From the IMG/VR virus record IMGVR_UViG_3300009181_000048, positions 1 to 64,000 of that record: a stretch of DNA of 64,000 bases; one strand, given 5' to 3'. Below the pieces are notes generated by a model. That model worked only from the letters and a program-made list of their open reading frames with translations, had not been told where the DNA came from and ran no database searches. This stretch comes from a virus. Below, piece after piece: positions 2,569-61,952 of the stretch. Every line of letters starts with the position of its first letter. Within the stretch, counting starts at the first letter, position 1. The position numbers and the translations under genes were made by a program.

Positions 2569-2871
2569 ATGGAAATTTCTTTTCATGAGCTTTGGGAAAA
2601 CTTAAAGAATTCTGACGAATCTGTTGAGAATGATTCAATGGCTGCTATTAGAAATGGTATTGGTATACGTGAGGATTTTTGGACGGACTTTTTATTGTTT
2701 TTAAATGACTCTAAAGGCATTTCTTCTTTACTGGATATTCCAATTGAAAAAATCAGCTCTTGGCATGATAAAATCAAACATAATATTAAAAAGGTAGAAA
2801 AAGCTGATAATAATGTAGTAACTAAAGATCGAGGGAAAGTAATGAAAACTGGGGCAAAAAACAATGTTTAA
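2569..2871 (+). CDS. Hypothetical protein
   Basis: 100 aa, mostly helical and charged, with a lysine-rich tail. It contains the segments MAAIRNGIGIREDFW and WHDKIKHNI. I do not recognise the family. Its end overlaps the start of the helicase gene by 8 bases, so it is probably the first gene of the same transcript. A CTATATA element lies about 35 bases upstream of the ATG. An opposite-strand frame covers the same region, but the operon-like overlap with the helicase supports this strand. Confidence 0.6.
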   Translation: MEISFHELWENLKNSDESVENDSMAAIRNGIGIREDFWTDFLLFLNDSKGISSLLDIPIEKISSWHDKIKHNIKKVEKADNNVVTKDRGKVMKTGAKNNV

Positions 2872-5104
2872 GCGTTGGTTAAATATAGATGAGATGGCGA
2901 TTGCACAATTTGGTAAGCATGGACCAAAAGATGGAAAGCCACCTAAACACATTAATGACATTGATACGGGATATTTGAATTGGCTGCTTCAACAAATTGA
3001 ACAAGAAAAAAGAGGAGTCATTGATCCCAAAACCGGTCTTCCAATAAAAACGAGTTTTAATTTTATGGCAGATGATGGATCCGGTAGATTAACGAAACAA
3101 CAGGTAGAGGATGCTATTAAAATTCGTATTAACGGCAGCAAAATAGCGAGCACAAGTGCGAACAGCCCAATCGTTGCTTTCTCAGAAAAACCAACAAAAG
3201 AACCAATTCCACCTCAAGAAGAACCCAAACAACCCGCATTGAACAATGTTGATAAAAGCAAGTATTTAATTTCACCAGAAAAAATAAGTGAATATCAAAA
3301 AGATATAGAGGAAGCTTTTTCTAGAACGAATAAGCACATGGTCATTAACGCTCTTGCCGGAACGGGCAAAAGCACTGTACTAAAACATCTAGCAGCTAAA
3401 TTCCAACATGGGAAAAAATGGCTGTATCTAGTCTTTAATAATCGCAATGCTGCTGAGGCAACATCAGGAGAAAAAGCATTTCCTCCTGGCGTCGAAACTT
3501 TCACAAGTCATAGTTTCTTGGGTAGAGTATTAAAAGATACAAATAGATACAAACCAGAGGTTATGAAAGATACATCGTTGCCTCTGAAGGGGGACAAAGG
3601 TACCAAATTAGGAAAAGTTTTAGATAGTAATTGGTTTAAGAGTATAGCGAAACAAATACAAAGTCAACGAGGTTTTCCAGGAAGAGAAAGTGAATTTGTT
3701 TACTATAGTAAGGTCAAAAATTCCGAACAAGTTAATTATAATTTAAAAACAAAAATAACAAAATTAGTTTCATTGTCAAAAGCTTTTGCTATCAATCCTG
3801 ATAAACAGGACGCCAGAGATAAAATTGCTTCGATTATGAGCAAATATAGTATGGATGGATACTTGGTAAAACCAAGCAATGATAAAGATGATGAGATGCC
3901 AACAGATTTCACGGATCAAATTATACAATTATCTTTGGAAGTTCTCAAAAAATCGAAACCCTCAGAATCTATGGGAGATACATCTTTAGATTCAATGAGA
4001 GATCATGATGATACTGTGTGGTGGCCATCTTTAAACCCAGATAAAATGGTTTGGCCCACGAATAGAACTTACGAAGTAGCTTTAGTAGACGAAGTTCAAG
4101 ATTTCAATGAAGCTCAAAAAATAATGCTTGAACATTTAGCTAAAAACGGCATTAGAATTATTATGGTAGGTGACAAAAATCAATCTTTGTACAGATTCAG
4201 AGGAGCAGATGCTAACTCTTTTTCTAACATAGAAACCATGTTAAAAGGCACAAATCTTGGAGCAACATCTCATGAACTGCCAGTCAATTACAGAAGCGGC
4301 AAAAAAATTATTGATTATGTAAATAAAAACACCCACGTTAAAGATCTAAAATCGGGACGGGATCATGAAGGTGAGGTTAACAATACAACTTATGAAAAAG
4401 TAATGGGTGACATTGAACAAGAATGGGAAGAAAACAAAGAATTAAAACATGAGACTGCTTTTATTGCTAGAGGAAACAAGCCTTTGGCTGCGGCTGCTAT
4501 GGAACTGTTAAAAAATAATATTCCTTTCATCATTATAGGAAAAGATTTTTCTAATGAGATTACAGATTTTATTTATAAAGTAGTTGGAAACGATAAGGTT
4601 GGACTTGGGAAAAGTAACGCACGCTCTTATAAAGCAAAAGAATTTGGTCAAATAATGACCAATTATATTGAACAAAAAAATCATAAATATGAAGGCGAAA
4701 AAGATAAAGAAAAATATTTAGAAGAACTTTCTCAAACCTATGAAGCTCTAAGCAGTTTGCTTAGTCATATTCAAGACAATGAATGGAAGGACCAATATTC
4801 CAAAGAAATAAAAAATGTAGAAGATTTATGCGAATATATCAGAAATATATTTAAAGGAATAGACCCTCAAGATTCAGAGAAAGACGCCGAAAATTATGCC
4901 AACAGAAATAAAAAGCGTGCTGTAATTTTAACTACTGCTCACAAATCTAAAGGGCTAGAATTTGAAAGAGTAAATATATTAGAAAATGATAAATTCCCTG
5001 CCGGAGACACTTACAACCCATCAGATGAAGAAGCAGAGCAAGAGCACAATGCTAAATACGTCGCATATACAAGAGGAACGCATGTTCTTAACGTTGCTGA
5101 TTAA
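2864..5104 (+). CDS. UvrD/Rep-like superfamily 1A DNA helicase with N-terminal DUF3820-like segment
   Basis: 746 aa. All main SF1A helicase motifs are visible: Walker A ALAGTGKST (163-171), motif II DEVQDF (about 409), motif III GDKNQSLYRFRGAD (about 432-445), NYRSG (about 475), motif V TTAHKSKGLEF (about 688-698) and motif VI YVAYTRG (731-737). It should use ATP to unwind DNA in replication, recombination or repair. Residues 16-44 (FGKHGPKDGKP, then YLNWLLQQ) resemble the DUF3820 domain often fused to exonucleases, and a Pro-rich linker follows. The first ten residues, MFKRWLNIDE, resemble the N-terminal motif shared by many proteins of this phage. The helicase motifs are certain; the DUF3820 and N-terminal assignments are tentative. 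Confidence 0.9.
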   Translation: MFKRWLNIDEMAIAQFGKHGPKDGKPPKHINDIDTGYLNWLLQQIEQEKRGVIDPKTGLPIKTSFNFMADDGSGRLTKQQVEDAIKIRINGSKIASTSANSPIVAFSEKPTKEPIPPQEEPKQPALNNVDKSKYLISPEKISEYQKDIEEAFSRTNKHMVINALAGTGKSTVLKHLAAKFQHGKKWLYLVFNNRNAAEATSGEKAFPPGVETFTSHSFLGRVLKDTNRYKPEVMKDTSLPLKGDKGTKLGKVLDSNWFKSIAKQIQSQRGFPGRESEFVYYSKVKNSEQVNYNLKTKITKLVSLSKAFAINPDKQDARDKIASIMSKYSMDGYLVKPSNDKDDEMPTDFTDQIIQLSLEVLKKSKPSESMGDTSLDSMRDHDDTVWWPSLNPDKMVWPTNRTYEVALVDEVQDFNEAQKIMLEHLAKNGIRIIMVGDKNQSLYRFRGADANSFSNIETMLKGTNLGATSHELPVNYRSGKKIIDYVNKNTHVKDLKSGRDHEGEVNNTTYEKVMGDIEQEWEENKELKHETAFIARGNKPLAAAAMELLKNNIPFIIIGKDFSNEITDFIYKVVGNDKVGLGKSNARSYKAKEFGQIMTNYIEQKNHKYEGEKDKEKYLEELSQTYEALSSLLSHIQDNEWKDQYSKEIKNVEDLCEYIRNIFKGIDPQDSEKDAENYANRNKKRAVILTTAHKSKGLEFERVNILENDKFPAGDTYNPSDEEAEQEHNAKYVAYTRGTHVLNVAD

Positions 5105-6844: not shown

Positions 6845-8437
6845 TCAAGGACTCTGTGATGTTTCTGTCACTGTTGCCGAACCACCGACATATCCAGTCC
6901 TCGTTGTCGTTATTGTAGCCGTTGAACTCGTAGCTGCGGTAACACCGGTTACCGTGACCAGACCACTTCCGCTGACAACTACTGTTCCCGATGCTGTTGC
7001 CGTACCAGCCCATGTGTAGGCGGCGTCATAGTTGCTGATCTGGACTGTGAAGCCATCAGCCGTTGCTGTTGTGCTTCCAAATGTTGGGGTCAATGCAACA
7101 GCCAGTGAGGTTGCCGTAACTGGTGCCGTTCCACCTGCATACCCCGTCCTCGTTGTCGTTATTGTAGCCGTTGAACTCGTAGCTGCGGCAACACCGGTTA
7201 CCGTGACCAGACCACTTCCGCTGACAACCACTGTTCCCGATGCTGTTGCAGTACCAGTCCATGTGTACAATGCGTCATAGTTGCTGATCTGGACTGTGAA
7301 ACCAGAAGCCGTTGCTGTTGTGCTTCCAAATGCTGGTGTTCTCGCAGCAAGCAGCGAGGTTGCCGTAACTGGTGCGGTTCCACCGACATACCCAGTTCTC
7401 GTTGTAGTAATTGTAGCCGTTGAACTCGTAGCAGCGGCAACACCGGTTACCGTGACCAGACCACTTCCGCTGACAACCACTGTTCCCGATGCTGTTGCAG
7501 TACCAGCCCATGTGTAGTCAGAATAGTAATTGCTGATCTGCACTGTGAATCCATCAGCAGTTGCTGTTGTGCTTCCAAATGTTGGTGTGTGTGCAGGACC
7601 AAAAGTTTCACCTGTTAGCCTAAAAGTGAATCCGTCATCATCAATTGCATTTGTGTCTGCCGGAACAATTCTTTTAACCCAAACTGGTACACTATCTAAA
7701 TACTTAAAATTTCCAATACTATATGGTGTATCAATCATATAATCACTAAAACTTACACTTGCCGGAGCAGTTGAGTCTGATGATATTTCGTCGGGTATGT
7801 AGTTTACAGGTCCTCCAGAAAGATTTCTTGTAATTGCAATAGACGGTTGAGCACCAGTTGTTGTTAAAGACGATGAATCTAACGCCAACATTTCATGGAA
7901 TCTATTTCCAGATGTTCCTGTAAAAACTATTGTAAATACGTAATAATTAGATCCAGAATCAACTCCAGTTACGACAACGTCTTTTAGTGCCTCAATAGTT
8001 CTTAAAGACGTTTGCAAGTTTCCCGCCCACGTAGCAACAGAAGCGTTCCAACTAATAGTTTTAGATGAGGTTCCGTCAATATCTGTATATGCTATATCAA
8101 AAGATCCTCCATTTATTAACAAAACATTTTGTATTGTGATATTCTGTTGTTCGTCTTGTGTTATAAATCCAAGTTCAATTTGAATTTCACTTTCGGCTTT
8201 ATAAGAAAAATATAATTCGGATGTCCATAGCGTTGAATCTTCCGAGTCATTATTTATGTAAAAACATCTGTAATCTGTTTTGCCTTCTTTGGCCTCAGCA
8301 TCGGATACATTTGAAAACAATCTTTCTGCAATTATAGGATGAGTCGAAGATTCTCCTCCTAAGGATAAATTGTGATTTAAGTTGTTTTCCCCGCCAGATA
8401 ATGTAAATCTTATGTCTGATCCAAGAATAATAGTCAT
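6845..8437 (-). CDS. Virion structural protein with three C-terminal Ig-like/beta repeats
   Basis: 530 aa. The N-terminal 275 residues contain RLFSNVSDAEAKEGKTDYRC, a style I associate with phage virion proteins, and further beta-rich sequence. The C-terminal 250 residues are three near-identical 83-residue beta-rich repeats of the type TPTFGSTTATADGFTVQISN ... YTWAGTATASGTV ... TITTTRTGY, ending soon after the third. Such serine/threonine/glycine-rich repeats occur in cell-surface and fibre proteins. It is most likely a tail or capsid surface protein that contacts the host. No signal peptide is present. The structural role is inferred from sequence style and genome context. Confidence 0.65.
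   Translation of the reverse strand: MTIILGSDIRFTLSGGENNLNHNLSLGGESSTHPIIAERLFSNVSDAEAKEGKTDYRCFYINNDSEDSTLWTSELYFSYKAESEIQIELGFITQDEQQNITIQNVLLINGGSFDIAYTDIDGTSSKTISWNASVATWAGNLQTSLRTIEALKDVVVTGVDSGSNYYVFTIVFTGTSGNRFHEMLALDSSSLTTTGAQPSIAITRNLSGGPVNYIPDEISSDSTAPASVSFSDYMIDTPYSIGNFKYLDSVPVWVKRIVPADTNAIDDDGFTFRLTGETFGPAHTPTFGSTTATADGFTVQISNYYSDYTWAGTATASGTVVVSGSGLVTVTGVAAATSSTATITTTRTGYVGGTAPVTATSLLAARTPAFGSTTATASGFTVQISNYDALYTWTGTATASGTVVVSGSGLVTVTGVAAATSSTATITTTRTGYAGGTAPVTATSLAVALTPTFGSTTATADGFTVQISNYDAAYTWAGTATASGTVVVSGSGLVTVTGVTAATSSTATITTTRTGYVGGSATVTETSQSP
6850..7600. repeat. Three tandem 249-bp coding repeats
   Basis: Three direct copies with a period of exactly 249 bases (for example the anchor CTTCCAAATG at 7074, 7323 and 7572) encode the 83-residue beta repeats of the structural protein. 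The copies are nearly identical at the DNA level and GC-richer than the flanks, suggesting recent amplification or acquisition from a repetitive surface-protein gene. Confidence 0.85.
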
Positions 8438-11249: not shown

Positions 11250-12275
11250 TTATGACTTTGGTTTTCTGCCTTGCATGATATGTCTTTTTACCGTGTGCAG
11301 AGACGCTTTTGGATCTTCCTCTCCAGATTCATTATCGGCTGTAACCTCTTCGTCACGATCCTGAGCATTTGGTCCAGTCTTTCGCTTTGGTTTATTTTGC
11401 ATGGATGTTATAGAGCCTTCTTCAACAGAATTAGAAGCCAAATCATTTCCTAGTTTGCCTACCGGTGCAAAACCAACATCTCCAGCTTGTGGCTCTGGAC
11501 GCACTGCTTGTGTCAGGTTTTCAGTGTCAACAGGAGTAAATAGAGAATCTTTCTGATACTCTGTCCAACCATCATGGAATTTTTGATCGGGGTCATGTCC
11601 GGTCATTTTGTTTACACTGTCCCACCAAGCAGCATTAGATTCTTCTTTCATCTTTTTGCTTTTTTTGTTCATTTTGTTCATTTTTTTGAAATCTTTGCCT
11701 GTTATTTTTCCATCGCCGTCAACATCTAGCTTTTTTTGATTTCCTTTTAGCATTTTCTTTTTTGATTTTTTGCTAAATTTAAGACTCTCATCCTCATCCT
11801 CATCCTCATCCTCATCCTCATCCTCATCCTCATCCTCATCCTCATCCTCGTCCTCATCCTCATCCTCATCCTCGTCCTCGTCCTCGTCCTCGTCCTCATC
11901 CTCATGATCATGATGATGCTCGTCATCATCTTTGTCCTCTTCCTCTTCCTCCTCACCGCCATTATCTTCATCATCTGAAAACATTTTCTTTTTGCTCATT
12001 TTGCCGCATTTCATTCCACATTTCTTGTTATCTTTTTTCTCTTTTTTCTCTTTCTCTTTTACTTCCACATCTACATCTACATCTGAATCTTTAACAATTT
12101 CTCCGTCACTATCTTTATCTTTTTTGTGTTTTTCTTTTTTCTTTGCATGTTTTGTTTCTTCAATATCGAAACCACTTTGTAGCTGTATTCCGAGGTTAGA
12201 GTGGTTCCCTAGACCAAGATTGAAACTTGGTAGAATTGACTCGTTTAAATTTTTCCACTGTTTGTACGATAACAT
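11250..12275 (-). CDS. Poly-Glu/Asp protein with EF-hand loop and N-terminal targeting-like motif
   Basis: 341 aa. It begins MLSYKQWKNLNES, matching the shared N-terminal motif of this phage. Lys/Asp-rich sequence follows, with CGMKCGK, then a Glu/Asp tract of about 45 residues (117-161) built from ED repeats. A single EF-hand calcium loop, DVDGDGKITGKD, lies at about 183-194, and the tail is polar. The acidic tract could mimic DNA or bind cations or basic proteins, and the EF-hand suggests Ca2+ binding. It may be packed in the head as an internal protein, by analogy with T4 internal proteins. A strong ribosome binding site (AAGGAAA) is present and the promoter is shared divergently with the LolA-like gene. 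Confidence 0.7.
   Translation of the reverse strand: MLSYKQWKNLNESILPSFNLGLGNHSNLGIQLQSGFDIEETKHAKKKEKHKKDKDSDGEIVKDSDVDVDVEVKEKEKKEKKDNKKCGMKCGKMSKKKMFSDDEDNGGEEEEEEDKDDDEHHHDHEDEDEDEDEDEDEDEDEDEDEDEDEDEDEDEDEDEDEDESLKFSKKSKKKMLKGNQKKLDVDGDGKITGKDFKKMNKMNKKSKKMKEESNAAWWDSVNKMTGHDPDQKFHDGWTEYQKDSLFTPVDTENLTQAVRPEPQAGDVGFAPVGKLGNDLASNSVEEGSITSMQNKPKRKTGPNAQDRDEEVTADNESGEEDPKASLHTVKRHIMQGRKPKS
11786..11911. repeat. Hexanucleotide CTCATC/CTCGTC coding microsatellite
   Basis: About 20 tandem hexamers CTCATC or CTCGTC encode the alternating Glu-Asp tract of the minus-strand gene. Changes in copy number keep the reading frame, so tract length can vary without disrupting the protein. Confidence 0.85.
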
Positions 12276-13224: not shown

Positions 13225-13410
13225 ATGAAGACTTTCATGCAATGGGCTGGTAATGAGAAAAAAGAATTGCCAATGATATCAGAAAAAACGCACAGAGGTG
13301 GTATTGCACATTGGGCTTATCCTGATGCTTATGCAAGGTCACAATACCCCGATTTATATTTTACTCCAATCGCAGCAGACGCAATACAAAAGATGGGCAT
13401 TAAGAAGTAA
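13225..13410 (+). CDS. Small protein with N-terminal targeting-like motif
   Basis: 61 aa. It begins MKTFMQWAGNE, close to the T4 capsid-targeting sequence in layout and to other N-termini in this phage. The rest (GGIAHWAYPDAYARSQYPDL) is aromatic and compact. No enzymatic motif is seen. GGAG lies about 11 bases before the ATG, and CTATATAATTTAACGG lies about 45 bases upstream. It could be a minor internal head protein; this is inferred from the motif. Confidence 0.6.
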   Translation: MKTFMQWAGNEKKELPMISEKTHRGGIAHWAYPDAYARSQYPDLYFTPIAADAIQKMGIKK

Positions 13411-15006: not shown

Positions 15007-15783
15007 ATGCGTGGAGTAATACTAGCAGGTGGCTTAGCAAAACGTATGCTGCCTGCTTCCAAAGTAATCAATAAACATCTTATGCCTGTTTATATGGATG
15101 CTATAGGTGCCGTTCCAATGATTTATTTCCCATTAAATACATTGATAAAATCTGGAATAAAAGAAATATTAATTGTTACATCTGAAAAATCTGCCGGAAT
15201 GATGGTTGATATGTTGGGAGATGGCAATAAGTTTGGAGAAAATGTAGATTTTACATATAAAGTTCAAAATATGAATAATGAAAAAAGACCTGTCGGTATT
15301 GCTGGTGCATTAAAATTAGCAAGAGTATTTACTGAAAATGAAAAGTTTGCGGTTATATTAGGCGATAATTTCTTTGAGGACTCTTTTGAAAAAGAAATTA
15401 AACAATTCGAATCAGGTCGTCATGTTGGACATATATTTTTAAAGTCTGTGAACGACCCAGAAAGATTTGGTGTTGTAAACATGAACAGCAATAATGAGAT
15501 TATTGATATTGAAGAAAAACCAAATAATCCTAAATCCAACTATGCTTCTACTGGAATGTATCTCTTTGATAAGGCTGTTTACAATATTGCAAACAACTTA
15601 GTTGTTTCAAATAGAAAAGAGCTTGAAATAGTTGATATTCATAACCAATTAATTGCTAGAAAAGAGTTAAGTCTATCATTTGTCAATAAATTTTGGCACG
15701 ATTTAGGAACACCAAAAAGTATAAGATTTGCTGAAAAATACTTGCAACAAGTTAATTTTGAATTCGAATTTCCTGTAAACTAA
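15007..15783 (+). CDS. RmlA-like sugar-1-phosphate nucleotidyltransferase
   Basis: 258 aa. The N-terminal signature LAGGLAKRMLPASKVINKHL with PVY and PMIYFPL matches glucose-1-phosphate thymidylyltransferases. GDNFFED is the metal-binding region, and IEEKPNNPKS with YASTGMYLFD match the sugar-binding core. The enzyme would make an NDP-sugar, probably dTDP-glucose. In the usual family motif GGxGTR the Gly-Thr pair is replaced here by Ala-Lys, which could affect activity or nucleotide preference. With the HldD-like epimerase it suggests changes to host or phage sugar chains. It is preceded by a sigma-70-like promoter and converges with a minus-strand internal-protein gene with a 4-base overlap. 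Confidence 0.75.
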   Translation: MRGVILAGGLAKRMLPASKVINKHLMPVYMDAIGAVPMIYFPLNTLIKSGIKEILIVTSEKSAGMMVDMLGDGNKFGENVDFTYKVQNMNNEKRPVGIAGALKLARVFTENEKFAVILGDNFFEDSFEKEIKQFESGRHVGHIFLKSVNDPERFGVVNMNSNNEIIDIEEKPNNPKSNYASTGMYLFDKAVYNIANNLVVSNRKELEIVDIHNQLIARKELSLSFVNKFWHDLGTPKSIRFAEKYLQQVNFEFEFPVN

Positions 15784-16487
15784 CCAGTCGGTGCTACGTC
15801 TTGTCTTCTTCGTTGCTGGCGTTGCGGGCGTTGCATTTGAGTAACATTAGGCTGAGCGGCGTCAGGCTGAGCAACGGTCTGAGCAGCATTCTGAGGGACA
15901 GGTTGAGCAGCCGCCTGACCAGGAGGCACAACATTTTTTGCACCAACAACATTAGTGTCTGCAACATAAGAACCCTGTTGAGCATGTGTTTGCAGTATAT
16001 TTTTTACGTTTACAGATTGCTGCTGCAATTGTTTCATAATTCCTTGCAAATTACCAACAAGCTTTTTAGCTTCTGGATCTGTTTTAGAAGCTGATTGTAC
16101 CGCAACGTTTTGATTTAATTCTTTTGATAAGGCATTTAGTGCTTCTAAGGAAGCAGCATAATGGGCTTCAGGACCTGCAACCGCTGCTCGAAATTGACCA
16201 GCAGATTGTGAGGCTTTATCTGCTATTTGACCAGCAGCAGACTTGACGCCTCCAATCATGTTCTTTCCAGCATCTAATACAGCACTACCAAACCGTTTTA
16301 CTCCATCCATAAATCCTTCTGAAACACTCTTATGCTCTTCTAATGCAATAATCATGTCGGCATTGCCTTCGTAGTATTCCAATAAAAACTTCCAAGGGTT
16401 AATGTTTTTTTCAACCATTAGTGTTGCAATTTCTTTTTTAATAGAATTTGCTGTTTTATTCTCTAAAAAGGATTCAAATGATTTCAT
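15780..16487 (-). CDS. Ala/Gln-rich internal-type protein with N-terminal targeting-like motif
   Basis: 235 aa from the ATG at 16487; an upstream start at 16538 would remove the shared motif and lacks support. It begins MKSFESFLENK, then has a helical region (INPWKFLLEYYEGN), a Gly/Ala-rich amphipathic stretch (SAVLDAGKNMIGGVKSAAGQ), helices, and a low-complexity Pro/Gln/Ala and Arg/Gln tail. There is no enzyme motif. It looks like a flexible structural or ejected internal protein. Upstream lies TTGCTATATAATTCTAAACG, one of the better copies of the TATA element. Confidence 0.65.
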   Translation of the reverse strand: MKSFESFLENKTANSIKKEIATLMVEKNINPWKFLLEYYEGNADMIIALEEHKSVSEGFMDGVKRFGSAVLDAGKNMIGGVKSAAGQIADKASQSAGQFRAAVAGPEAHYAASLEALNALSKELNQNVAVQSASKTDPEAKKLVGNLQGIMKQLQQQSVNVKNILQTHAQQGSYVADTNVVGAKNVVPPGQAAAQPVPQNAAQTVAQPDAAQPNVTQMQRPQRQQRRRQDVAPTG

Positions 16488-16836: not shown

Positions 16837-17313
16837 ATGAAAAATTTCAAAGAATGGAAGGATGCTGAAGATTCATTTATTGAATCTGTAGAGGTATCTA
16901 GATATTCCATAGAAGTTAACTATAGAACCACTAGCGAAGAAGCATTAGAAGGTTTTGCGAAATTATGCTTAGGATATATAAGTGCAGCATTAAAAAAACA
17001 TGGATACCACACAAAACATGTTTTTACAGAAAAGCCTCTAAGGTTAATGGTTTCTTCTAGAAATTGGGATGATGGAGAATGGACAGGATTAGTTACATGG
17101 AACCCTGAGCATCTTTGTTTTATAATAAGCAAAGGGTTTTATAACAAAACCCGTAGTACGGTGTCAGTTAAAAAATCAATGAAATGTGTTGGCAAATCTG
17201 CATCAGAAATAACAAAAGAATTACACAATATGATGCATGCATTAAAAGAAGAACCGGATAGGCATGCAGAAAAACTAAAGCCAGTTGGTCTAAAACGAGG
17301 ACCAAAAAAATAA
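16837..17313 (+). CDS. Hypothetical protein with N-terminal targeting-like motif
   Basis: 158 aa from the ATG at 16837; a TTG seven codons upstream is less likely. It begins MKNFKEWKDAEDSFIES, matching the shared motif. An alpha/beta region follows (SRYSIEVNYRTTSEEALEGF, then PLRLMVSSRNWDDGEWTG) and a basic tail (KPVGLKRGPKK). No known family is recognised. It may be a packaged internal protein. Confidence 0.6.
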   Translation: MKNFKEWKDAEDSFIESVEVSRYSIEVNYRTTSEEALEGFAKLCLGYISAALKKHGYHTKHVFTEKPLRLMVSSRNWDDGEWTGLVTWNPEHLCFIISKGFYNKTRSTVSVKKSMKCVGKSASEITKELHNMMHALKEEPDRHAEKLKPVGLKRGPKK

Positions 17314-41602: not shown

Positions 41603-42502
41603 ATGGAAAAGATTGTAGAAGCATTAAGAAAACTTTTGCCAGAAAATGAAATCAATGAGGTTTCATCCGCCGTTCAACAAATGTTGGAACAAGCAAAGCT
41701 TGATCTAGAAACAGAATTCAACGAGAAACTTGAAGAAGCGTATGGCGACCTATCCAGCGAAGTAGCCGAAGCAGAAAAAATTGCAGAAGCTGGATATGAA
41801 GAAGCATATGCAATTATTGCAGATCTTAGAAACAGATTAGAAATTCAAGGCGAAGAATATAAAGCCGCATTAGAAGAAGGATACGAAGAAGCATACGAAA
41901 TGCTCACCCAAGAAAAGGGAAAGAATCAAACACTCGAAGTAGAAATGTACGAAGAGTATGACAAAAAGCTTTCCGAAATGAAAGAATATATCGTAGACAA
42001 AGTCGACCAGTTCCTACAGTTTAAAGGTCAAGAGATTTATGAACAAGCTAAACTTGAGATCGTAAATGATCCTCGTATGGCAGAACATAAAGTCGCTCTT
42101 AACAAAATTGTAGACATAACTGCAAACTACCTGTCTGACGATGACTTTGCTGCTGTATCTTCAAATAAAGTTGAAGAAGCAAATAAGAAGATAGAAGAAA
42201 TGAAAGGACAGCTTCGAATCATGGAAGCCCGCAACATCAGAGTTTCAACAGAAAATACCAAGCTCAATGAAACCGTACGACACGCTCAAGAAGTAATCAA
42301 CGAAAGCCGAAAAGCTGTCGTGGAAAGCAAAAAGGAAGCTGTCGTTAACGAACAGAAAGAAAGAACTGAAAAAGCAAAGAATGTAACGGGGAGAGGAAGA
42401 ACAAGTGATGGTGAAGTCGTATCGGAATACGCATCACCCAATAATAATAATTCTGGTGCAGATCAATTATTGATCCTATCAGGATTGAAACAAGCTCAAT
42501 AA
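41603..42502 (+). CDS. T4-like prohead scaffold protein (gp22)
   Basis: 299 aa, highly charged and almost wholly helical (long Glu/Ala/Lys stretches, EEGYEEAYEMLTQEKGK), typical of a scaffold core. Its position between gp21 and gp23 matches T4. It forms the inner core around which the capsid assembles and is degraded by the protease. The Gly/Asn-rich C-terminus (GRGRTSDGEVVSEYASPNN) ends in LLILSGLKQAQ, which probably contacts the capsid protein. Confidence 0.85.
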   Translation: MEKIVEALRKLLPENEINEVSSAVQQMLEQAKLDLETEFNEKLEEAYGDLSSEVAEAEKIAEAGYEEAYAIIADLRNRLEIQGEEYKAALEEGYEEAYEMLTQEKGKNQTLEVEMYEEYDKKLSEMKEYIVDKVDQFLQFKGQEIYEQAKLEIVNDPRMAEHKVALNKIVDITANYLSDDDFAAVSSNKVEEANKKIEEMKGQLRIMEARNIRVSTENTKLNETVRHAQEVINESRKAVVESKKEAVVNEQKERTEKAKNVTGRGRTSDGEVVSEYASPNNNNSGADQLLILSGLKQAQ

Positions 42503-50342: not shown

Positions 50343-50350
50343 ATTATAGT

Positions 50351-51073: not shown

Positions 51074-51247
51074 TCAGTTTTTCTTCAAAGAAGCGTTCTT
51101 TTTCTTTTTTATAGATTTTTTCCCACAATTTAAATCAGAAAGTGCACCCCAAATTTGAAAATTAGCATTACTTCTATCTTTGCAACCTACTATGGCATCA
51201 CCGCCTGCGTTCTCTTTAATTTTTAACCAATTATAAAATGTTTTCAT
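51074..51247 (-). CDS. 57-aa protein with N-terminal targeting-like motif
   Basis: Frame beginning MKTFYNWLKIKENAGG, one of the best matches to the shared N-terminal motif and to the T4 capsid-targeting layout, with an I-K-E-N-A-G site suitable for cutting after Glu. The rest (GCKDRSNANFQIWGALSDLN) is compact, and the Lys-rich end (KKSIKKKKNASLKKN) is basic. It lies between the phosphoesterase and a terminator. I see no ribosome binding site, but the motif makes it likely to be real. Confidence 0.5.
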   Translation of the reverse strand: MKTFYNWLKIKENAGGDAIVGCKDRSNANFQIWGALSDLNCGKKSIKKKKNASLKKN

Positions 51248-52142: not shown

Positions 52143-55100
52143 TTAAGGAATAGACCAAGTATTGTTTTGAACATTAAAAGTTCCTTCTTGAACATAATAT
52201 CCTGCTGGAGGCGTGTTGGATGCAGTTGCATAGTTAAAATAACCTCTATTATATCTCATTTCGTCTCCACCAACTCCGTTTTTGTAATAAGCTGCTTTAT
52301 ACCATTCATTTTCTGTAGGAATCCAGCAATCGCTCATAACTTCAATAGACATTTCTCCATAATACGAAGTATTTGGGAAAATATACGAACCAGTTTCTGT
52401 GTCAGCATGAAAAGTTATACTAACTGTTCCGCTTGCAGTAGCAGGTGCCGACATAATAATTGTTGCATCCTCATAATCTGGTATGTCTATAACAGAGGCA
52501 CCGGTATCTATTCCCGTTCCAGTCATTAGCATTCCAATACAAACATCAAGAACACCAGGATCTGTATCCGCTGTAAAAATTACAGAGCTGCTCCCGTTTG
52601 TTGTGGTGCCTGTCAGAACTATCGTGTAAACGGCGGGAGTTTGTGCACCATTGTGAATCCAATTGCAGTACCGTGCTGCTGCATGCCATTTCGTTGCTAT
52701 CGGTTTTTTGTGCATTCCGCTTCTAATTTGCAAAATATCCAGTGTAGAATCAAAATATATTCCTAACCATTGACCGGATAAGTTTGGATTTGCACCTTCT
52801 TGATCTTGAATAAGATCTAGGTCTACTATGCGTTGCATGCTGCCGTCTATTACATTAGCCTGTAAAAAAAGCATATATTGTTCTACAGTTATATTCAAAG
52901 CACTAATATAAAAATCATAATGTACATTACCACAATTCTTTTTAAGTGCTTTTGTGGATAACAAGCCATCTCCGAACCTGCTTTCCACCACATCAGCATT
53001 GTTACCTGCTTCATCAATGTCAATTAGATTTACTAATTTAAGCGATGCGTTTCCATCATAAAAATCTTTGTGAAAACTTGCAATTCTAAATGTTGAAAGG
53101 TTTTCTATATCCCATGATATTTCATGTTTATTGGTAGATCGAAAAACTTTAGTTCTTTTATCTGGTCTGTTGTCTTCAATTTCATATAAAGATCGTTTAT
53201 TAGGAAATAAAGTTCTTCCTCCTGTGAGACCTACTCCTCTTACAATGTATTCTGCATCTTGTTCTAACTGTTCTGGAGCATCGAAAGAATCTTCTACGTA
53301 AACAGCACTGCTAGATATACGAACATCATCAATATATCCATTAAAAACTTCGGCTAAATTGTGTCGACCGGCACCAATAGTAAGGTCGTGTGTGGCTGGA
53401 GAATCTGGATCCGTTATTACCGTGTTGTTGAAGAATTCGTATACATTTACACCATTCGCATATATGCGGTAATTGTTAGTATTTTCATCTACAAGCCAAG
53501 CATTATTTCTTACTAATGCAAGGTGCGTCCATGATCCAACGGGAGCATGAACCTCAGCGTTCCAATCATAATGCAGAACGCTTGTTCCTGTTATTTCTGC
53601 ATAACCAGACGTACTACAACCATCACTATCGTTGAAGTGTGCGGATTGTGCAACTGTAAAAGCCGTATCCGTAACAGTAAGTATTGTATAGGTTATTGTA
53701 ACATCGTGTAGACAAGCGGTACACTGTGCATATTTAAGCCTTGTTATTGTAACGCTACCACCAACTGAAAATCCGTGGGAGCGTTCAGCGATAGGATCAG
53801 CAAAGCCTCCAATTTCACTTGTATCTCCTACATACGTGATTGTAATCGTAGCACCACTTCTATTATAAGATCCCGTAAATGATTTATTCCCACTGATATA
53901 TAAAGAATCTGAATTGCTCCCGTGTCTCCAAAGGATACCATCGTTATACTCTCCTACACTGAACAAGCCTCCTACTAAAGTTTGAGATGTTGGGTAAACC
54001 CATGCTTCTAAAGTAAAGTCTCCTATTCCAAAATCAAAAACTTCGTTTGCCGCGATATACGCAAAATTGCCAGAACAAGCCATAGCAGATGCACCAAATT
54101 TCTTTTCAGCACTAGTTGTAATACTTATTGGACTGCCAATTGATCCGTTGTATCCCAATACTTCCAAACCAAAATAACTGTTATCCGTTAATTCGTCCTC
54201 GAAATTTAGAATTAATATGGCATTTACACCTTCCCATGTGCTTGTAAGTTCTCTACCGTTTCCACCTTGATCGAATGTGCCATAAGCACTCGTGCTTTTT
54301 ATTGTGCCAACATCCAGTATAACACCTCCAGAGCTATGGCTATAGCCGCTGCCGCCGTTTGTAACAGTTACAGCGGTTATAACGCCGTTGCTTGTGTTTA
54401 TTATACCCGTAGCACCTGAACCATTTGAAGCTGTGAAAATAATTTTTGATCCATTTCCATACCCTGTGCCTCCTTTAGGATCATATTTCCCGAACCCTAC
54501 AACATTAACGCCGCTGATGGATGTACTAGGTTCTGGGCTTACAACTACAAAGAATTCTGCTCCTACACCGTCAACCACAGATGCTGTAATGTACCCAGAA
54601 ACTTCAGGATCGTTAGTAGAGATGTAGCCACTGCCGCCATTTGTAATATTTACGCTAGTAACAATACCAGAAGAAGTAACAATTGTTGCTGTGGCTCCAG
54701 AACCATTTGAAGTTGTAAAAGAAATGTTTGATCCACTTCCATAATCTGCACCTCCTCTGATAATGCCTACGCCTGTTATCGCACCAGAAGATACTGTTAT
54801 ATTTCCAAACACAACTCCAGAACCGCTTTTAACATAAGCTTGAACAGGATCTTCGGGTTGAGTATTATTTTCTGTTGAATCTCCATGCGTAAATTGATCT
54901 TCTTTAACATCAACATTAAAATGAAAGGTAGAGCAGTTGTCAGCACACCTTGGATCTGCTTGTGTTTCTATCATGAGTCGAATAGTTTTTGTTTCAAAAG
55001 GTAGAGCTATTACATACCCTTCTTCTTCTTGCGATCCAGTCCAAACCTGAAAATCATCAGCCCATATATGAAATACATTCGGGTTCTCAATTTGACCACC

Positions 55101-57212
55101 GCATGTGAATGTCAAGGACTTTATTCCAATAGGGCGTATAAAATTGTGAGTAAACCAAGAGCCATCTGGTTCTGCTGTAACCTGACACTTACAATTTTCA
55201 ACAGGAGTTGTTGGAGGGGCTCCAGGATCTGTGCCGCATGTATAGGTGTGGGTTCCTATGGATGGTTCGTAACTATCAACGATGCAAACTTCTGGGGCAC
55301 AACAATTCGGACACGTCCTTTGTAACGGAAATTGTTTCGGTAGATAGTTGGCTTGATTAGAATCGCTTCCAATCGTTGTGCCTGGAGGTGTTTCACTCTG
55401 TGTGGCGAAAGACCAGTATCCGCCGACGCCAGATCCACAGCGATTTGGTGAGTAGTACCCAGCTTTGTACCACTCGTCTATAGTTGGCATCCGATACGTA
55501 GGAGCTAAACCCGTATTTGGGTTTATGTCGTTGACGGTATATATTAAGTTTGATACACTTAGTAGTGTAGGTTGACCGTATTGGTCCAATGCACTCTCAT
55601 CAAAATTGTATGCACCGTTTTCTGTTGTCGTTCCGTCTTGTGCTCCGCTCGGTTTGCCATTACTCATCCAATTGCAAAATCTCGCACATGAATCAAAGCT
55701 AACAAACTCGACCGGATGGTTACCAGCACTGTTCAAAACGGCATATACGTAGCCGCCGTTTGTACCAGAACGGCTGATTGATGGTATATAAGATGTTTGA
55801 TAGACTGTTGTGTTCATTAGGGTACTGTAGAGACCACCAACGGGATCAGTGGCAGCTACCGCATTTAAGAACTCCGTGTACTGATCGACCGTCACTGCGT
55901 ACTTGCCGATCTGGTATTCGTATGACACGGAACCCGCATCTCGTGCCGGGTTCCCGCAAACCGAAGAAGAGTCGTACGCCGCACCGAGGATGGCGGCATC
56001 CCGCCGTGCCTGCAAAGCCTGCGAGGGTGACAAGCTGTTACCACAAGGGACCAGTAAGCCACTTTCTTTGGCGGCGTTTCCAGGATTGCCAACCGGCACC
56101 ATGTCAGGGAGTTCTTCCATTGATGAACTTGCGAGGCGAAAACCGATGTAGTAACCCCCGTAACGAGGGTCCTGCTCCTCGACCATGGGTCTGCTGTAAC
56201 TCCAGAGGGAGGAATATATGCTGATATTAACAGTGCTTCCCGTGAAACCAGTAGCTACACCATTAAGTTTAATTTCGATAACCTCTCCGGTCCACTCATT
56301 TACATTGCCAAACTGATCAAATGTGCCGTAGAAGCTCTCGCTGCCAGTAAATGAGCCTACGTCAGTTACGTGCCCGATCCAGTTTTCACTAGTCCAGATG
56401 TCTTCTTCTGATACTACTGGTTGGTCATTAACTAGCGTAACAGGCGATGTATCAGGTACAAGAGCGTCAAGTTCTGCTCCACTACCTTTGTCTCCTCCGT
56501 CCCCTCCAGACAACGGAGTTATTTCAGGTGCTCCAGTTGCTCCAACTTTAACGTTCAAAACAGTCCAAGAAATGTCTCTGAATGTTCCTTGTCCTGGCAA
56601 GTCATTATTATCAAGAATATAAGATACGGTTGTGTGGTTTGTTTGTACTAAGTATCCAGGAACGAGTGTTGCTGTACCTTGCCAAGATTTGTCGCCAAAT
56701 TTTTGATCTATTATGGCTAATTCTCCAATATCTGAAAGATTAAATGAGAATTTGTCAGGACGATAACTAGCGTCTTTCCTTGTCCATACTCTATTTCCAT
56801 TTGCTCGTATAAGATTTCCTTTAACATCATATGAGGGTCCATTCATGTCTGCTGCTGTACATTCCCAGTAAACAGTCATGCCTGTAATGTTTACTCTAAT
56901 TTTATCGATTCTTCTTTTGTCTCCGATTTTAAAGTGTGCATCAAGCAGTCCTTGTGCATACATAAGCGGTCCTTTTCCGTCTATTGTGTATTCAGCAGGA
57001 CTAAGATCTGATGGAACTCTATCTTCTGGATCGGTGCTAGCATTTTCAAAATAGAAAGTTTTTATTCCAGTTTCAGGCATGTCATTGTCTGTTGTGAAAC
57101 TGTTACAGCTTTCAATTGACAGTATGTGTGTGTCTGCTGGTACATTTTCTCCTGTAACCTTAAGACCAACACGCAAGAATGCTGTCGGGCACGATCCGGC
57201 TATTTTTGTCAT
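52143..57212 (-). CDS. Giant fibre/adhesin: mosaic of sulfatase-modifying-factor (FGE/C-type-lectin) half-domains, Gly-rich repeats and LamG
   Basis: 1689 aa. Order: a structural N-terminus (1-280); a C-terminal half of an FGE/SUMF1 domain (YGTFDQFGNVNEWTG about 293, ending YYIGFRLASSS about 367); an N-terminal FGE half (VPVGNPGNAA, YEYQIGKYAVTVDQYTEFLN, FCNWMSNGKPSG, PTYRMPTIDEWYKAGYY; about 378-640); a Cys-rich part; two Gly-rich repeats with NGGSGY (about 795-960); a short FGE remnant (YGTFDQGGNGREL, about 975); a LamG/concanavalin-like domain (about 1000-1305); and another FGE N-half with an inserted beta domain (about 1400-1689). FGE folds relate to the C-type-lectin fold of phage receptor-binding proteins, so it probably binds the host surface. 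Catalytic FGE function is unlikely. Confidence 0.75.
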   Translation of the reverse strand: MTKIAGSCPTAFLRVGLKVTGENVPADTHILSIESCNSFTTDNDMPETGIKTFYFENASTDPEDRVPSDLSPAEYTIDGKGPLMYAQGLLDAHFKIGDKRRIDKIRVNITGMTVYWECTAADMNGPSYDVKGNLIRANGNRVWTRKDASYRPDKFSFNLSDIGELAIIDQKFGDKSWQGTATLVPGYLVQTNHTTVSYILDNNDLPGQGTFRDISWTVLNVKVGATGAPEITPLSGGDGGDKGSGAELDALVPDTSPVTLVNDQPVVSEEDIWTSENWIGHVTDVGSFTGSESFYGTFDQFGNVNEWTGEVIEIKLNGVATGFTGSTVNISIYSSLWSYSRPMVEEQDPRYGGYYIGFRLASSSMEELPDMVPVGNPGNAAKESGLLVPCGNSLSPSQALQARRDAAILGAAYDSSSVCGNPARDAGSVSYEYQIGKYAVTVDQYTEFLNAVAATDPVGGLYSTLMNTTVYQTSYIPSISRSGTNGGYVYAVLNSAGNHPVEFVSFDSCARFCNWMSNGKPSGAQDGTTTENGAYNFDESALDQYGQPTLLSVSNLIYTVNDINPNTGLAPTYRMPTIDEWYKAGYYSPNRCGSGVGGYWSFATQSETPPGTTIGSDSNQANYLPKQFPLQRTCPNCCAPEVCIVDSYEPSIGTHTYTCGTDPGAPPTTPVENCKCQVTAEPDGSWFTHNFIRPIGIKSLTFTCGGQIENPNVFHIWADDFQVWTGSQEEEGYVIALPFETKTIRLMIETQADPRCADNCSTFHFNVDVKEDQFTHGDSTENNTQPEDPVQAYVKSGSGVVFGNITVSSGAITGVGIIRGGADYGSGSNISFTTSNGSGATATIVTSSGIVTSVNITNGGSGYISTNDPEVSGYITASVVDGVGAEFFVVVSPEPSTSISGVNVVGFGKYDPKGGTGYGNGSKIIFTASNGSGATGIINTSNGVITAVTVTNGGSGYSHSSGGVILDVGTIKSTSAYGTFDQGGNGRELTSTWEGVNAILILNFEDELTDNSYFGLEVLGYNGSIGSPISITTSAEKKFGASAMACSGNFAYIAANEVFDFGIGDFTLEAWVYPTSQTLVGGLFSVGEYNDGILWRHGSNSDSLYISGNKSFTGSYNRSGATITITYVGDTSEIGGFADPIAERSHGFSVGGSVTITRLKYAQCTACLHDVTITYTILTVTDTAFTVAQSAHFNDSDGCSTSGYAEITGTSVLHYDWNAEVHAPVGSWTHLALVRNNAWLVDENTNNYRIYANGVNVYEFFNNTVITDPDSPATHDLTIGAGRHNLAEVFNGYIDDVRISSSAVYVEDSFDAPEQLEQDAEYIVRGVGLTGGRTLFPNKRSLYEIEDNRPDKRTKVFRSTNKHEISWDIENLSTFRIASFHKDFYDGNASLKLVNLIDIDEAGNNADVVESRFGDGLLSTKALKKNCGNVHYDFYISALNITVEQYMLFLQANVIDGSMQRIVDLDLIQDQEGANPNLSGQWLGIYFDSTLDILQIRSGMHKKPIATKWHAAARYCNWIHNGAQTPAVYTIVLTGTTTNGSSSVIFTADTDPGVLDVCIGMLMTGTGIDTGASVIDIPDYEDATIIMSAPATASGTVSITFHADTETGSYIFPNTSYYGEMSIEVMSDCWIPTENEWYKAAYYKNGVGGDEMRYNRGYFNYATASNTPPAGYYVQEGTFNVQNNTWSIP

Positions 57213-58653: not shown

Positions 58654-58695
58654 ATGCAATTTAATCAATGGTTAGAATGTAATAATACCAGATAG
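58654..58695 (+). pseudogene. Remnant N-terminal targeting motif (13 codons)
   Basis: An ATG-started frame of 13 codons, MQFNQWLECNNTR then TAG, lies 48 bases before the gene that begins MNFKQWLVSC. It repeats the start of that gene (M-x-F-x-Q-W-L) and is probably the remains of a duplicated or deleted internal-protein gene, or a short leader peptide. A TATATATAGATTG element precedes it. Confidence 0.4.
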
Positions 58696-58743: not shown

Positions 58744-59259
58744 ATGAATTTTAAACAGTGGTTAGTTAGTTGCAAGTCACCAAGTATTTTTGAAAACTCT
58801 AAAGGCTTAGACTTCTTGCGGGCTGACAGCTCTGAACGTGCTAGATTCCAGTCCCTAAGTCAGCAAATAGATCAAGCATATGCGATAAAAGATTATAAAA
58901 AAGCAGAAGAACTAGAAGTTGAATTAGAAGACCTGTCTAATAATTTGGAAGATAAACTAAGTGATATTGGTCAAGAAGGTGGAGAGGAAGATGATGTTGA
59001 TCAAGATTGGAGTGTTCAAGATGACTTTGCAAATATATATGCTAGATATTTAAGCAATAAGATAAGCGATGCTGATATTTTCCCTATTCTTAAAGATGCT
59101 ATACTTGCACCTAATATTAATTTATCTTTTCCAAATATGAAGCTAATAAATAGTCTTGACAAAGAGTCTTTACTTGCGATGGCAAAAGATGCTTATTTAC
59201 ATAAGAAAAATATGCATGCTTCTTTAAAAGGAGCCGGTAGTTTGTGGGGTAAAAAGTAA
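58744..59259 (+). CDS. Internal-type protein with N-terminal targeting-like motif
   Basis: 171 aa beginning MNFKQWLVSCKSPSIF. A helical charged region follows (QSLSQQIDQAYAIKDYKKAE ... ELEVELEDLSNNLEDKL), then an acidic linker (GGEEDDVDQDW) and a helical C-terminus. Its stop overlaps the start of the PARP-like gene by 1 base, so the two are translated together and their products may act or be packed together. No family is recognised. Confidence 0.6.
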   Translation: MNFKQWLVSCKSPSIFENSKGLDFLRADSSERARFQSLSQQIDQAYAIKDYKKAEELEVELEDLSNNLEDKLSDIGQEGGEEDDVDQDWSVQDDFANIYARYLSNKISDADIFPILKDAILAPNINLSFPNMKLINSLDKESLLAMAKDAYLHKKNMHASLKGAGSLWGKK

Positions 59260-61952
59260 TGAGTTTTTCTGGAATAATATTAGCTAAGGCGACAAGCAAA
59301 GATGGCGTAGATTCCATATTGAAAAATGGTTTTCAAACGCAAGAAAAGCATATATCTTCTACAAAAACTTTTGAAAAGCATGCGGAAACAGACACGGATC
59401 AAATGTATGGTGCTGGTTTATATTTTTCTATTGCTTATTCTATGGATCAGGTAAAAAATAATTGTGGAAAGTATGCCGATACGTGGGGTAGCGAGATCAT
59501 AATTGCCACCTTAAACGGTAAGTATAAAATACTTAATACAGCTTTCTCAATGCCGGAAAGCCATCCTATATGGAGTGCATCAACCGCTGGCAGAGCAGGC
59601 ATTTATAACCAGCTAGTAAATCTTGGTATTATAAGCTTGTTTCCCGATTATAAAGATGGCGATACACACTTTCCTTCTGAATACGGATACAAAATTTCTC
59701 ATAGCATTGATGCGTGGGTTCACGAGCACAATCAAATCGCACATATTGTTGTTTATAACCCTAAAATATTAAAATATGTTACATCTTTTGAGTGCAAAAA
59801 AGAAGAAAAACAATTCAAAGTTCTACAACCATCAGAGAAAAAAGAGCAGCCAAAAATAGATCTTTTGCAACAAGCTGCACAGCGAAGAAAAGAAAAAGAA
59901 GCATTAAGTTTAAAAGTTCCAAAGGCTTCAAATGATCTTAATCTAGAAAATAATTTTAAAGCTTGGTTGGAATCAATTGAAGATTACGAGCCATTTAGAA
60001 GCAAGATAGATAAAATAGGAGCTAATAGAACATTTCCTTTTGAAAAATGGTTTTCCAACTCAGAAAACGGAAGAATTTATATTCCCTTATCGGAGGTACA
60101 GGAAGAAGATATAAAGTCTACAAAATATTTACGTGATTATCTTGAATCTCGTGGATATCAAATCATAGATTTAAAAAAAGGATATGCAAAGCAGGATAAT
60201 AAACAAAATATTTTTAAAATAGGCAAACTTCTAGACACTTTATTATACAAAGACCTAAAGCTATTAGATATAGAATTACAAGATAATAAAATTTCTTTGT
60301 TGAAATACAATAAAGAAAAATTAAATATGAATCAAAATCATACGTCTATGAAAACTAAATTTGAGAATCTTAACTCTAGGGTTAGCGGCGTATTGTATGT
60401 TGTAATAAGCAGCAATATTCATGATTTAGCATCTATGAGCACAGGAAGAGGATGGAGTAGCTGCATGAATCTTGATGGCGGCGAGAAGAAAGACGATGTT
60501 TATTGTGAAGTAGAGAGAGGCGGATTTGTTGCGTATGTAATAAAAGATAACGACAGAGAAATACAGCAGCCAATAGCAAGATTACATATACGTAGGTTTG
60601 ACAGTAAAAAAGGACTTTCCATAGCCGTACCAGAAGAAACAATATATGGAAAAGAAATAAATGGTTTTATAGAAAAAGTAAAAGACTGGATACAGTCTAA
60701 ACAAGGAAGTAAGGCAGGTCGATATCGAAAAGTAGGTGGCAATTATTCAGATACATTTAGTTCTTCTAACAATATATTAATCTCTCCAAAAGAAGGCAAC
60801 AAAATAAGGCAATGGCTAACGAAATGGCTTGATATTAAGCAAGAAGATAAGAGCAAGTACGCAGATTATTTTAGTAAGTCATTGATTTCTCTTTTTAATT
60901 CTAGTGAAAAATATCCAGATAAATTTTTAAACAGACTAAAAGAATATATATTTAATTCTAATATATGGTATAAACCTACTAAAGGATTTGCACAAACCAC
61001 AGATCAGTTCATGAGTAAATTTGCAATAAGGTTTCCAGACTTAATAAGCAAAGAAGATTTTTTTAAAGCTTATGCAAAAAATATAAACAGCGAAGGCGGT
61101 ATTGGCAAGCAGCTACTGGAAAAATTCCCCCAGTATATTGACGAAAAGATATTATCAATAACATCAAATAGAAATAAGTCAGCAGTTATACAATCAGCTC
61201 CTCATCTAAGTCCTGTTCATAAAGAGATCATAGAGGACGAATTAGACAACAAATTAACTATTAGTAATCCAGATTTCACTCCCAGCAATAAAAATGGCAT
61301 ATATCAAGTAAGAAATTACATACATAATGAAATAGAAAAATTATCAATTTGGAAGCCTATACCAGAAAGAATTGCATCAAAGGCAATTAAGTTTGCAGAA
61401 GATATAATGCGTAAAGACTTCGATGAAGAAAAAGAAGGATCTAAAGATGATAAAGACCTAATTACAGACTTTAAAAGATTGAAAATTTCTCCTTCTGATT
61501 TTGAAGAAATGAAGGAATCTGTTATAGAATCTCTTCTACACGTTTTCACACAAACAAAAACGGATGTGCCAGTTGTACAAAAGTTCTATAAATCTTTGCT
61601 GCCAAATTGGGAGAAATATGGAGGAATAGGAATTATAGGATATGCCATCTCTTCTCTTCGAGAAAATGGTCGACAATTTTTGCCATTTATAAAACAAAAG
61701 AAGCAAGACTTCATACGAGAAAACAGCATTGGCACTCCGGAGTCAGAACTTCATCAAGGCTACAAGGGTTTGACACCACTAACGAACTCTGAGTACGCTA
61801 GGATTGCCAAAGACAAGGATGAGGTAGTTGAATCTTTTAACTATGTCATTGATACATTAGAAACTGGAAGTCCCTCTAAAAAATATTCCATGAAATTTGG
61901 GGTTAATTATGACAACTATATGCACAGGCAAAAAAGAAGGACAACAAATTAA
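59259..61952 (+). CDS. PARP/ADP-ribosyltransferase-like multidomain protein
   Basis: 897 aa. Residues 1-180 resemble a PARP-type ADP-ribosyltransferase: VDSILKNGFQ (helix after the first strand), MYGAGLYFSIAYSMDQV (G-x-G-[IL]-Y-F plus Ser), EIIIATLNGKYKIL and HIVVYNPKILKYV near the usual catalytic-Glu strand. The canonical first His and catalytic Glu are not clear, so activity is uncertain. At about 228-240 NNFKAWLESIED repeats the shared targeting motif internally. The next part holds SSNIHDLASMSTGRGWSSCM with ARLHIRRF, a phage-associated domain of unknown function, and then a long helical region. T4 packs its ADP-ribosyltransferase Alt in the head; a parallel is inferred. Confidence 0.5.
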   Translation: MSFSGIILAKATSKDGVDSILKNGFQTQEKHISSTKTFEKHAETDTDQMYGAGLYFSIAYSMDQVKNNCGKYADTWGSEIIIATLNGKYKILNTAFSMPESHPIWSASTAGRAGIYNQLVNLGIISLFPDYKDGDTHFPSEYGYKISHSIDAWVHEHNQIAHIVVYNPKILKYVTSFECKKEEKQFKVLQPSEKKEQPKIDLLQQAAQRRKEKEALSLKVPKASNDLNLENNFKAWLESIEDYEPFRSKIDKIGANRTFPFEKWFSNSENGRIYIPLSEVQEEDIKSTKYLRDYLESRGYQIIDLKKGYAKQDNKQNIFKIGKLLDTLLYKDLKLLDIELQDNKISLLKYNKEKLNMNQNHTSMKTKFENLNSRVSGVLYVVISSNIHDLASMSTGRGWSSCMNLDGGEKKDDVYCEVERGGFVAYVIKDNDREIQQPIARLHIRRFDSKKGLSIAVPEETIYGKEINGFIEKVKDWIQSKQGSKAGRYRKVGGNYSDTFSSSNNILISPKEGNKIRQWLTKWLDIKQEDKSKYADYFSKSLISLFNSSEKYPDKFLNRLKEYIFNSNIWYKPTKGFAQTTDQFMSKFAIRFPDLISKEDFFKAYAKNINSEGGIGKQLLEKFPQYIDEKILSITSNRNKSAVIQSAPHLSPVHKEIIEDELDNKLTISNPDFTPSNKNGIYQVRNYIHNEIEKLSIWKPIPERIASKAIKFAEDIMRKDFDEEKEGSKDDKDLITDFKRLKISPSDFEEMKESVIESLLHVFTQTKTDVPVVQKFYKSLLPNWEKYGGIGIIGYAISSLRENGRQFLPFIKQKKQDFIRENSIGTPESELHQGYKGLTPLTNSEYARIAKDKDEVVESFNYVIDTLETGSPSKKYSMKFGVNYDNYMHRQKRRTTN

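Follow-up and report, generated by a model that had tools for sequence, protein, structure and literature searches.

Unrelated proteins encoded by an IMG/VR virus record and its relatives begin with one short tag, F-x-x-W/F/Y, in which the two aromatic anchors most often occupy residues 4 and 7 and Leu/Val and Glu come next (KTF[RK][EQ]WLE). The record (IMGVR_UViG_3300009181_000048; an 89-kb fragment of 88,978 b, here G000) contains as its bases 1–64000 the 64-kb stretch analysed here, which we call the window. We consider it very likely, judging from sequence, that the tag is a capsid targeting sequence (CTS) of the phage T4 type, borne by a greatly expanded range of head cargo that would be packaged and ejected. 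The virion thus probably injects a large protein kit together with its DNA. An earlier note on the window had proposed that unrelated proteins of this phage, which encodes a gp21-type protease, carry T4-CTS-like tags; this core held, and packaging of a PARP-like protein, which it had added, found no support.

The nearest deposited capsid protein (78.9% identity) belongs to LR756511, an uncultured phage of 595 kb that probably stems from a survey of huge phages (PMC7162821), although the accession was not found in the available part of that text. Contigs of the IMG/VR relatives reach 533 kb. Because LR756511 and these relatives are so long, the window record most likely represents a piece of a T4-like huge-phage genome. 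Four long relatives were read whole [LR756511, 595 kb; G001, 533 kb; G002, 343 kb; G003, 254 kb], with five further distinct contigs read completely or almost so (G004, G005, G007, G009 and G012); G010 is practically the same virus as the window record. Control stretches were taken from T4 (60–110 kb), phiKZ (50 kb), Flavobacterium phage immuto (100 kb) and LR756508 (200 kb), the last a huge phage of 484 kb.

Genes were called with a simple home-made caller using codon usage and ribosome sites, and expected counts were derived from internal protein windows. In the 88,978-b record, [FY]xx[WF] within residues 2–15 occurred at 16 of 103 N-termini versus 4.1 expected (P=3.5e-6), and with a Glu within five residues at 14 versus 1.7 (P=1.5e-9). 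To escape circularity, we used a nine-column model that excludes the start Met and was trained only on LR756511 and G001–G003. At 8 bits or more, this model found 12 of 100 N-termini in the window record versus 0.4 expected (P=4e-14). All five distinct held-out relatives were significant as well (observed/expected: G012, 12/0.7; G005, 24/2.0; G009, 16/1.0; G004, 23/1.7; G007, 14/1.2), with P values from 4e-11 to 6e-19 when the window record is included. The training genomes gave 78/11.0 (LR756511), 46/7.5 (G001), 56/4.4 (G002) and 40/3.3 (G003), and in these four longest relatives (254–595 kb) about 37–67 proteins per genome or contig are tagged above chance.

No enrichment was seen in the pooled T4, phiKZ, immuto and LR756508 stretches (4 observed versus 5.3 expected), and neither the mirrored motif (W..[FY]) nor spacings of 1, 3 or 4 residues gave anything comparable in the clade. 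The motif is thus enriched at N-termini over protein interiors and is not equally frequent at the N-termini of the four control phages, two points on which the earlier note had made its idea depend. All the N-termini it quoted exist at or near their positions. Since the motif had originally been spotted by eye in this very sequence and the starts come from our own caller, chance or a gene-calling artefact might be its source; the held-out genomes, control phages and mirrored and re-spaced motifs make that explanation hardly credible. Among the 281 motif proteins of at least 6 bits in the first five genomes, of which about 70 are expected by chance, the first aromatic lies at residues 3–6 in 179, with its peak at residue 4; in the 80 tags with the first aromatic at residue 4, residue 7 is W in 50, F in 18 and Y in 12.

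These positions are those known from T4. The first ten residues of T4 internal protein (IP) IPIII are enough for head entry, and scanning of IPIII placed targeting mainly at residues 4 and 7 and gp21 cleavage at residues 8 and 10 (reviewed in PMC9026906). Our motif expression recovered IPI, IPII and IPIII from the T4 stretch. Between tagged orthologs of the clade, anchor identity was 0.97 (first) and 0.82 (second), figures that are inflated because both orthologs were chosen by high motif score; most other nearby tag positions were 0.23–0.36 identical, and body identity was 53.5%. When pairs were selected by the tag of one partner alone, the motif was kept by 75% of the orthologs of tagged proteins versus 3.7% in the untagged background. 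Hydrophobic-x-Glu, the cleavage-type site, exceeded background at +3 to +5 from the second anchor (28% in sum versus 6.7%) and not beyond; [LIM]xE within 20 residues followed 46% of tag cores versus 22% of others.

The window also encodes the machinery that such a tag would use, in a head cassette whose order (portal, core, protease, scaffold, capsid) is that of T4:

35751–38285, plus strand: putative portal (gp20), from its position, its size and a gene order as in T4
39047–40891, plus strand: 614-aa protein MKRKLISFDVFKNLEE (MKRKLISFDVF..) in the position of T4 gp67/gp68, with 22 [LIVM]xE sites
40916–41596, plus strand: gp21-type prohead protease (Peptidase_S77; Pfam PF03420, E=2e-28), the predicted tag remover
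41603–42502, plus strand: acidic 299-aa protein, a predicted gp22-like scaffold/core protein from its sequence and its position between protease and major capsid protein
42532–43971, plus strand: major capsid protein gp23, by tblastn to gp23 proteins

The gp21-like protease announced by the earlier note is thus confirmed by its Pfam match and by alignment with T4 gp21, in which the GELDHP His and SSRG Ser regions are conserved; we take these His and Ser to be the catalytic residues. We searched 14 contigs, the near-identical G010 and 13 relatives, through their loci; together with the window's own record, an S77 protease was found in 15 of 15 records. The putative scaffold, with 21 [LIVM]xE sites, is the presumed tag-binding core. 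The capsid protein has a predicted 48-residue propeptide ending in RLMNE|AS, and [MIVF]NE stands at this site in 23 of 23 aligned relatives. T4 gp23 has a propeptide too. Second, diverged gp21-like protease paralogs are present in G001 (238157–238621), where the conserved HP and SSRG residues are absent, and in LR756511 (242240–243133). A diverged protease paralog is also reported for SPN3US.

Short linear N-terminal signals can serve many destinations, and head binding of the tag is something we infer, so the tag might address another structure or adaptor, such as a replication compartment, membrane, tail or baseplate. We regard this as very unlikely, because the anchors are T4 CTS residues 4 and 7, gp21-type sites are enriched after them, and the S77 protease is in every record searched. 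Under the CTS reading, tagged proteins made late would bind the assembling prohead core (the gp22-like scaffold) through their two aromatic residues and would be enclosed as the shell forms. The gp21-type protease would remove the tag at a hydrophobic-x-Glu site directly after it, the scaffold would be degraded and DNA would be packaged around the mature proteins, which would enter the host with the DNA at infection. Part of the delivered set may act as first-response counter-defence or RNA/nucleotide enzymes.

The tag appears on bodies of many kinds. The 281 motif proteins fall into 215 body families. In G005, a tRNA nucleotidyltransferase MKFKLWLENEEK and its untagged G002 ortholog are ~48% identical over 400 residues and differ by exactly the 12 tag residues, residue 13 of the former aligning with the first Met of the latter. 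Ten to eleven consecutive G005 genes (90152–97878) have closely similar leader and tag DNA (codons 2–9, mean identity 0.64 versus 0.30 in other genes; upstream 16 bases, 0.51 versus 0.31), and no similarity was detectable among the bodies of this run. In the window, the remnant MQFNQWLE reported by the earlier note exists, as a tag without a body:

58654–58695, plus strand: orphan tag open reading frame (ORF) MQFNQWLECNNTR, 13 codons and a stop, from translation; just before the tagged gene 58744–59259

The G005 run, the tRNA nucleotidyltransferase pair and the orphan tag look like products of tag copying with exchange of bodies. Shared ancestry of all tagged proteins, as ordinary paralogs with diverged bodies, might be read into the near-identical tag and leader DNA of neighbouring G005 genes, which means that the tag was copied; the bodies, however, belong to different folds and Pfam families, 215 body families are represented and an untagged close ortholog exists, which leaves that explanation practically no probability. 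In the wider G005 island (83588–97878), an untagged gene whose beginning looks by eye like S-adenosylmethionine (SAM) synthetase separates an AdoMet (S-adenosylmethionine) decarboxylase from the tRNA nucleotidyltransferase.

Cargo domains were assigned by Pfam matches above the curated cut-off, and in most cases checked the tag was N-terminal to the matched domain. Tagged tRNA nucleotidyltransferases were found in LR756511 and G002 and, by orthology, in G001, G003 and G005; two tagged Acb1-like 2H phosphoesterases in G002 and G004; a tagged SAM lyase in G007 and the AdoMet decarboxylase in G005. Other tagged proteins matched thymidylate kinase, C39 peptidase, HAD, Nudix and radical-SAM families. 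At entry, a phage would profit from removing cyclic nucleotides, from depleting SAM and from repairing tRNA ends; by family alone, several of these proteins look like weapons against bacterial defences. T4 provides precedents: IPI inhibits GmrSD (PMC3012670), and IPIII acts from the host cytoplasm and enables growth in ECOR17 (PMC9391042).

The tag could also lead to the prohead core while most tagged proteins serve in assembly or as part of the core and are degraded or kept in the head, undelivered. T4 gp67, gp68 and gp22 are cut to fragments in the head (PMC5694885), some tagged families adjoin head genes (38514–38891) and the probable core protein 39047–40891 is rich in cleavage-type sites. 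The cargo, however, includes enzymes without an assembly role (Acb1-like, SAM lyase, AdoMet decarboxylase, tRNA nucleotidyltransferase, thymidylate kinase) and varies strongly among genomes, and the activity of T4 IPIII in the host cytoplasm (PMC9391042) also speaks for delivery; we therefore think an assembly role unlikely. A bolder form of the CTS reading makes the tag a general zip code copied onto new genes, and has each virion bring in dozens of different enzymes with which the cyclic-nucleotide, restriction and tRNA-cleaving defences of the host are disabled ahead of phage gene expression. On this our judgement is evenly balanced.

Besides the inflated anchor figures, several observations weigh against a CTS. 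Less than half of the tags have a hydrophobic-x-Glu in the 20 residues after them; in the clade model, the tags of T4's own internal proteins reach no more than ~6.6 bits; and immuto and LR756508, the other T4-like phages tested, do not use this exact motif. False motif matches occur as well (primase, terminase, NADAR). The tagged proteins are only slightly more basic than others (median net charge per residue +0.009 versus −0.011 in untagged proteins), whereas those inside the T4 head are basic. No virion proteomics for this clade was found in the literature searched. The core interpretation nevertheless stands, because it came through all the computational checks that might have refuted it: comparison with internal windows and with other phages, motifs in mirror image or with altered spacing, held-out genomes, tag retention in orthologs, the match of its positions to T4 genetics and the enrichment of cleavage-type sites at a fixed distance.

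The tagged genes in and next to the window are as follows; scores are from the nine-column model unless the 12-column model is named.

2569–2871, plus strand: weak candidate MEISFHELWENL, 5.5 bits (12-column model); missed by the earlier note
2864–5104, plus strand: UvrD/Rep-type helicase, tag MFKRWLNIDE (residues 1–10), 12.2 bits; Pfam UvrD 5.5e-22 from residue 147
11250–12275, minus strand: acidic protein with EF-hand-like DVDGDGKITGKDF, tag MLSYKQWKNLNES, 12.4 bits
13225–13410, plus strand: 61-aa small protein, tag MKTFMQWAGNE followed by AYPDAYARSQYPDLY, 11.9 bits; family tagged in 12 of 12
15780–16487, minus strand: tagged protein MKSFESFLENK, 9.7 bits; ortholog MQTFTGFVGKK in G012
16837–17313, plus strand: tagged protein MKNFKEWKDAE, 11.8 bits
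18293–20659, plus strand: large tagged protein MPLISYKLFLEM, 788 aa, 6.1 bits
25133–25819, minus strand: tagged protein MSYKKYIEIKE adjoining the terminase, 9.0 bits; motif in 5 of 7 orthologs; missed by the earlier note
34559–34786, minus strand: 75-aa tagged protein MFYFKKWLENY, 14.2 bits; ortholog MQNFKNWLTKLE in G012
38514–38891, minus strand: tagged protein MKKFIDYVKLQE with a TTG start, between portal and core gene, 12.1 bits; 3 of 3 orthologs tagged
51074–51247, minus strand: 57-aa tagged protein MKTFYNWLKIKE, 12.1 bits; homolog MKTFKDWMQLKE in LR756511
58744–59259, plus strand: tagged protein MNFKQWLVS, overlapping the start of the PARP-like ORF, 9.9 bits
63993–64577, minus strand: tagged gene MNSMHFAKWLEQ crossing the window end, 12.8 bits; motif in 3 of 3 family members; missed by the earlier note
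64574–64837, minus strand: tagged gene MKKFQDWIIQEA just beyond the window; missed by the earlier note

The helicase is the only recognised enzyme among the window's tagged proteins. Its place in the set, claimed by the earlier note, has a good tag in its favour; because its sole ortholog (G002) is untagged, the case comes from one genome, and a scan of viral contigs for relatives returned only the same virus. In the family of the EF-hand acidic protein, which the earlier note had also named, 7 of 7 members retain the tag, while most of the acidic body is unalignable. This protein has a long D/E repeat and an EF-hand-like loop, and among relatives the acidic stretch varies in length while the tag stays.

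Members of the 13225–13410 family have 61–102 aa with AYPDxYxRxxYPDxY repeats, are always tagged in the genomes read and sometimes lie as two adjacent genes; perhaps this is an abundant internal protein. The tagged starts of 15780–16487 (minus strand) and 16837–17313 (plus strand) are internal to the longest ORF. Compared with most of its longer orthologs, most of which are tagged at their own start, 16837–17313 lacks ~40 aa after the tag; an AlphaFold 2 (AF2) model was confident for its body and of low confidence for residues 1–20, and the body fold had no significant PDB match. For 18293–20659 the motif is present in 6 of 7 orthologs at a body identity of ~20–29%. The orthologs of the weak candidate 2569–2871 keep a related pattern near the start, and no distinct ortholog of 58744–59259 was found.

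The 614-aa protein 39047–40891 had been listed as a tagged member. Its N-terminus exists, but its motif score is 4.6 in the 12-column model and below 6 in the nine-column model, and its orthologs are 42–72% identical. Because of this low score, the strong conservation and the location in the portal-protease cassette, it is probably a prohead core protein with a doubtful tag. The earlier note's proposal that the PARP-like ORF 59259–61952 is packaged by means of an internal motif copy is not supported, since the match is internal only and the sole ortholog found (G012, 204 aa) is untagged. In this ORF, GAGLYF resembles a PARP motif by eye; the PARP identity, however, found no support, as no Pfam, PHROGs or PDB sequence match was obtained and a two-sequence AF2 model was unusable (predicted local distance difference test, 41.8). 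A viral-contig scan for its relatives returned only the same virus.

The primase at 21093–22151, which was not on the earlier list, scores in the model, but its conserved FxxW belongs to the protein and not to a tag. Pattern matches in a NADAR protein (G001), in a terminase (G002) and in an HNH-like family were judged false positives. In LR756508 a small number of N-termini take a different form (MRFKRLLDQKE, MKFKELLKEQS, MIKFKKLLFED, MVKFKSLLFES), possibly that lineage's own tag; three of them continue with YRGT/YRAS-like sequence resembling ADP-ribosyltransferases. Repetitive, probably tail-fibre-like genes and a record-end repeat array occupy 1–600, 6845–8437 and 52143–57212 of the window and 85429–88950 of the record.

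If our reading is correct, the proteins that a huge phage may inject can be read off from their tag: among the ~37–67 candidate cargo proteins per long genome, most of them of undescribed function, sequence alone would list candidates for first-response counter-defence, and tag-guided searches could extend the discovery of anti-defence proteins. The CTS has been proposed as a means by which evolution recruits new head cargo (PMC9026906), and this proposal becomes directly testable, because tag copies sit on unrelated bodies and a tagged enzyme has an untagged close relative. We found no description of such tags in huge phages in a search covering part of the literature, and a term search of a 2026 jumbo-phage review gave no mention of ejected, internal or packaged proteins, targeting sequences or the prohead.

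Among known systems, the giant phages of the phiKZ/SPN3US type likewise package many proteins in the head and process them with a prohead protease (PMC5694885). Their propeptides, however, are mostly longer than 100 residues, their head and protease are of a different lineage, and the phiKZ stretch tested lacks the motif. The DarA/Hdf-type antirestriction proteins of phage P1 are head-associated and counter defences likewise (PMC12810830), in a different virion system. The nearest system is the T4 CTS on IPI, IPII, IPIII and Alt, which is cut by gp21 (Mullaney and Black 1996; reviewed in PMC9026906 and PMC3012670); further proteins with CTS-like sequences are known in related T-even phages (PMC9026906). 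Common to T4 and the clade are an N-terminal tag of 10–20 residues with aromatic anchors at 4 and 7 and, in the clade behind part of the tags, hydrophobic-x-Glu after them, the gp20-gp21-gp22-gp23 cassette, unrelated fast-changing bodies and a plausible counter-defence cargo. The clade, known here from sequence alone, differs in that the second anchor is mostly tryptophan whereas the T4 internal proteins have Phe, in having ~37–67 tagged proteins per long genome above chance where a handful are known in T4, and in its recognisable enzymes as cargo and its tag islands. As a principle the CTS is already known, and the clade represents a much enlarged variant of it.

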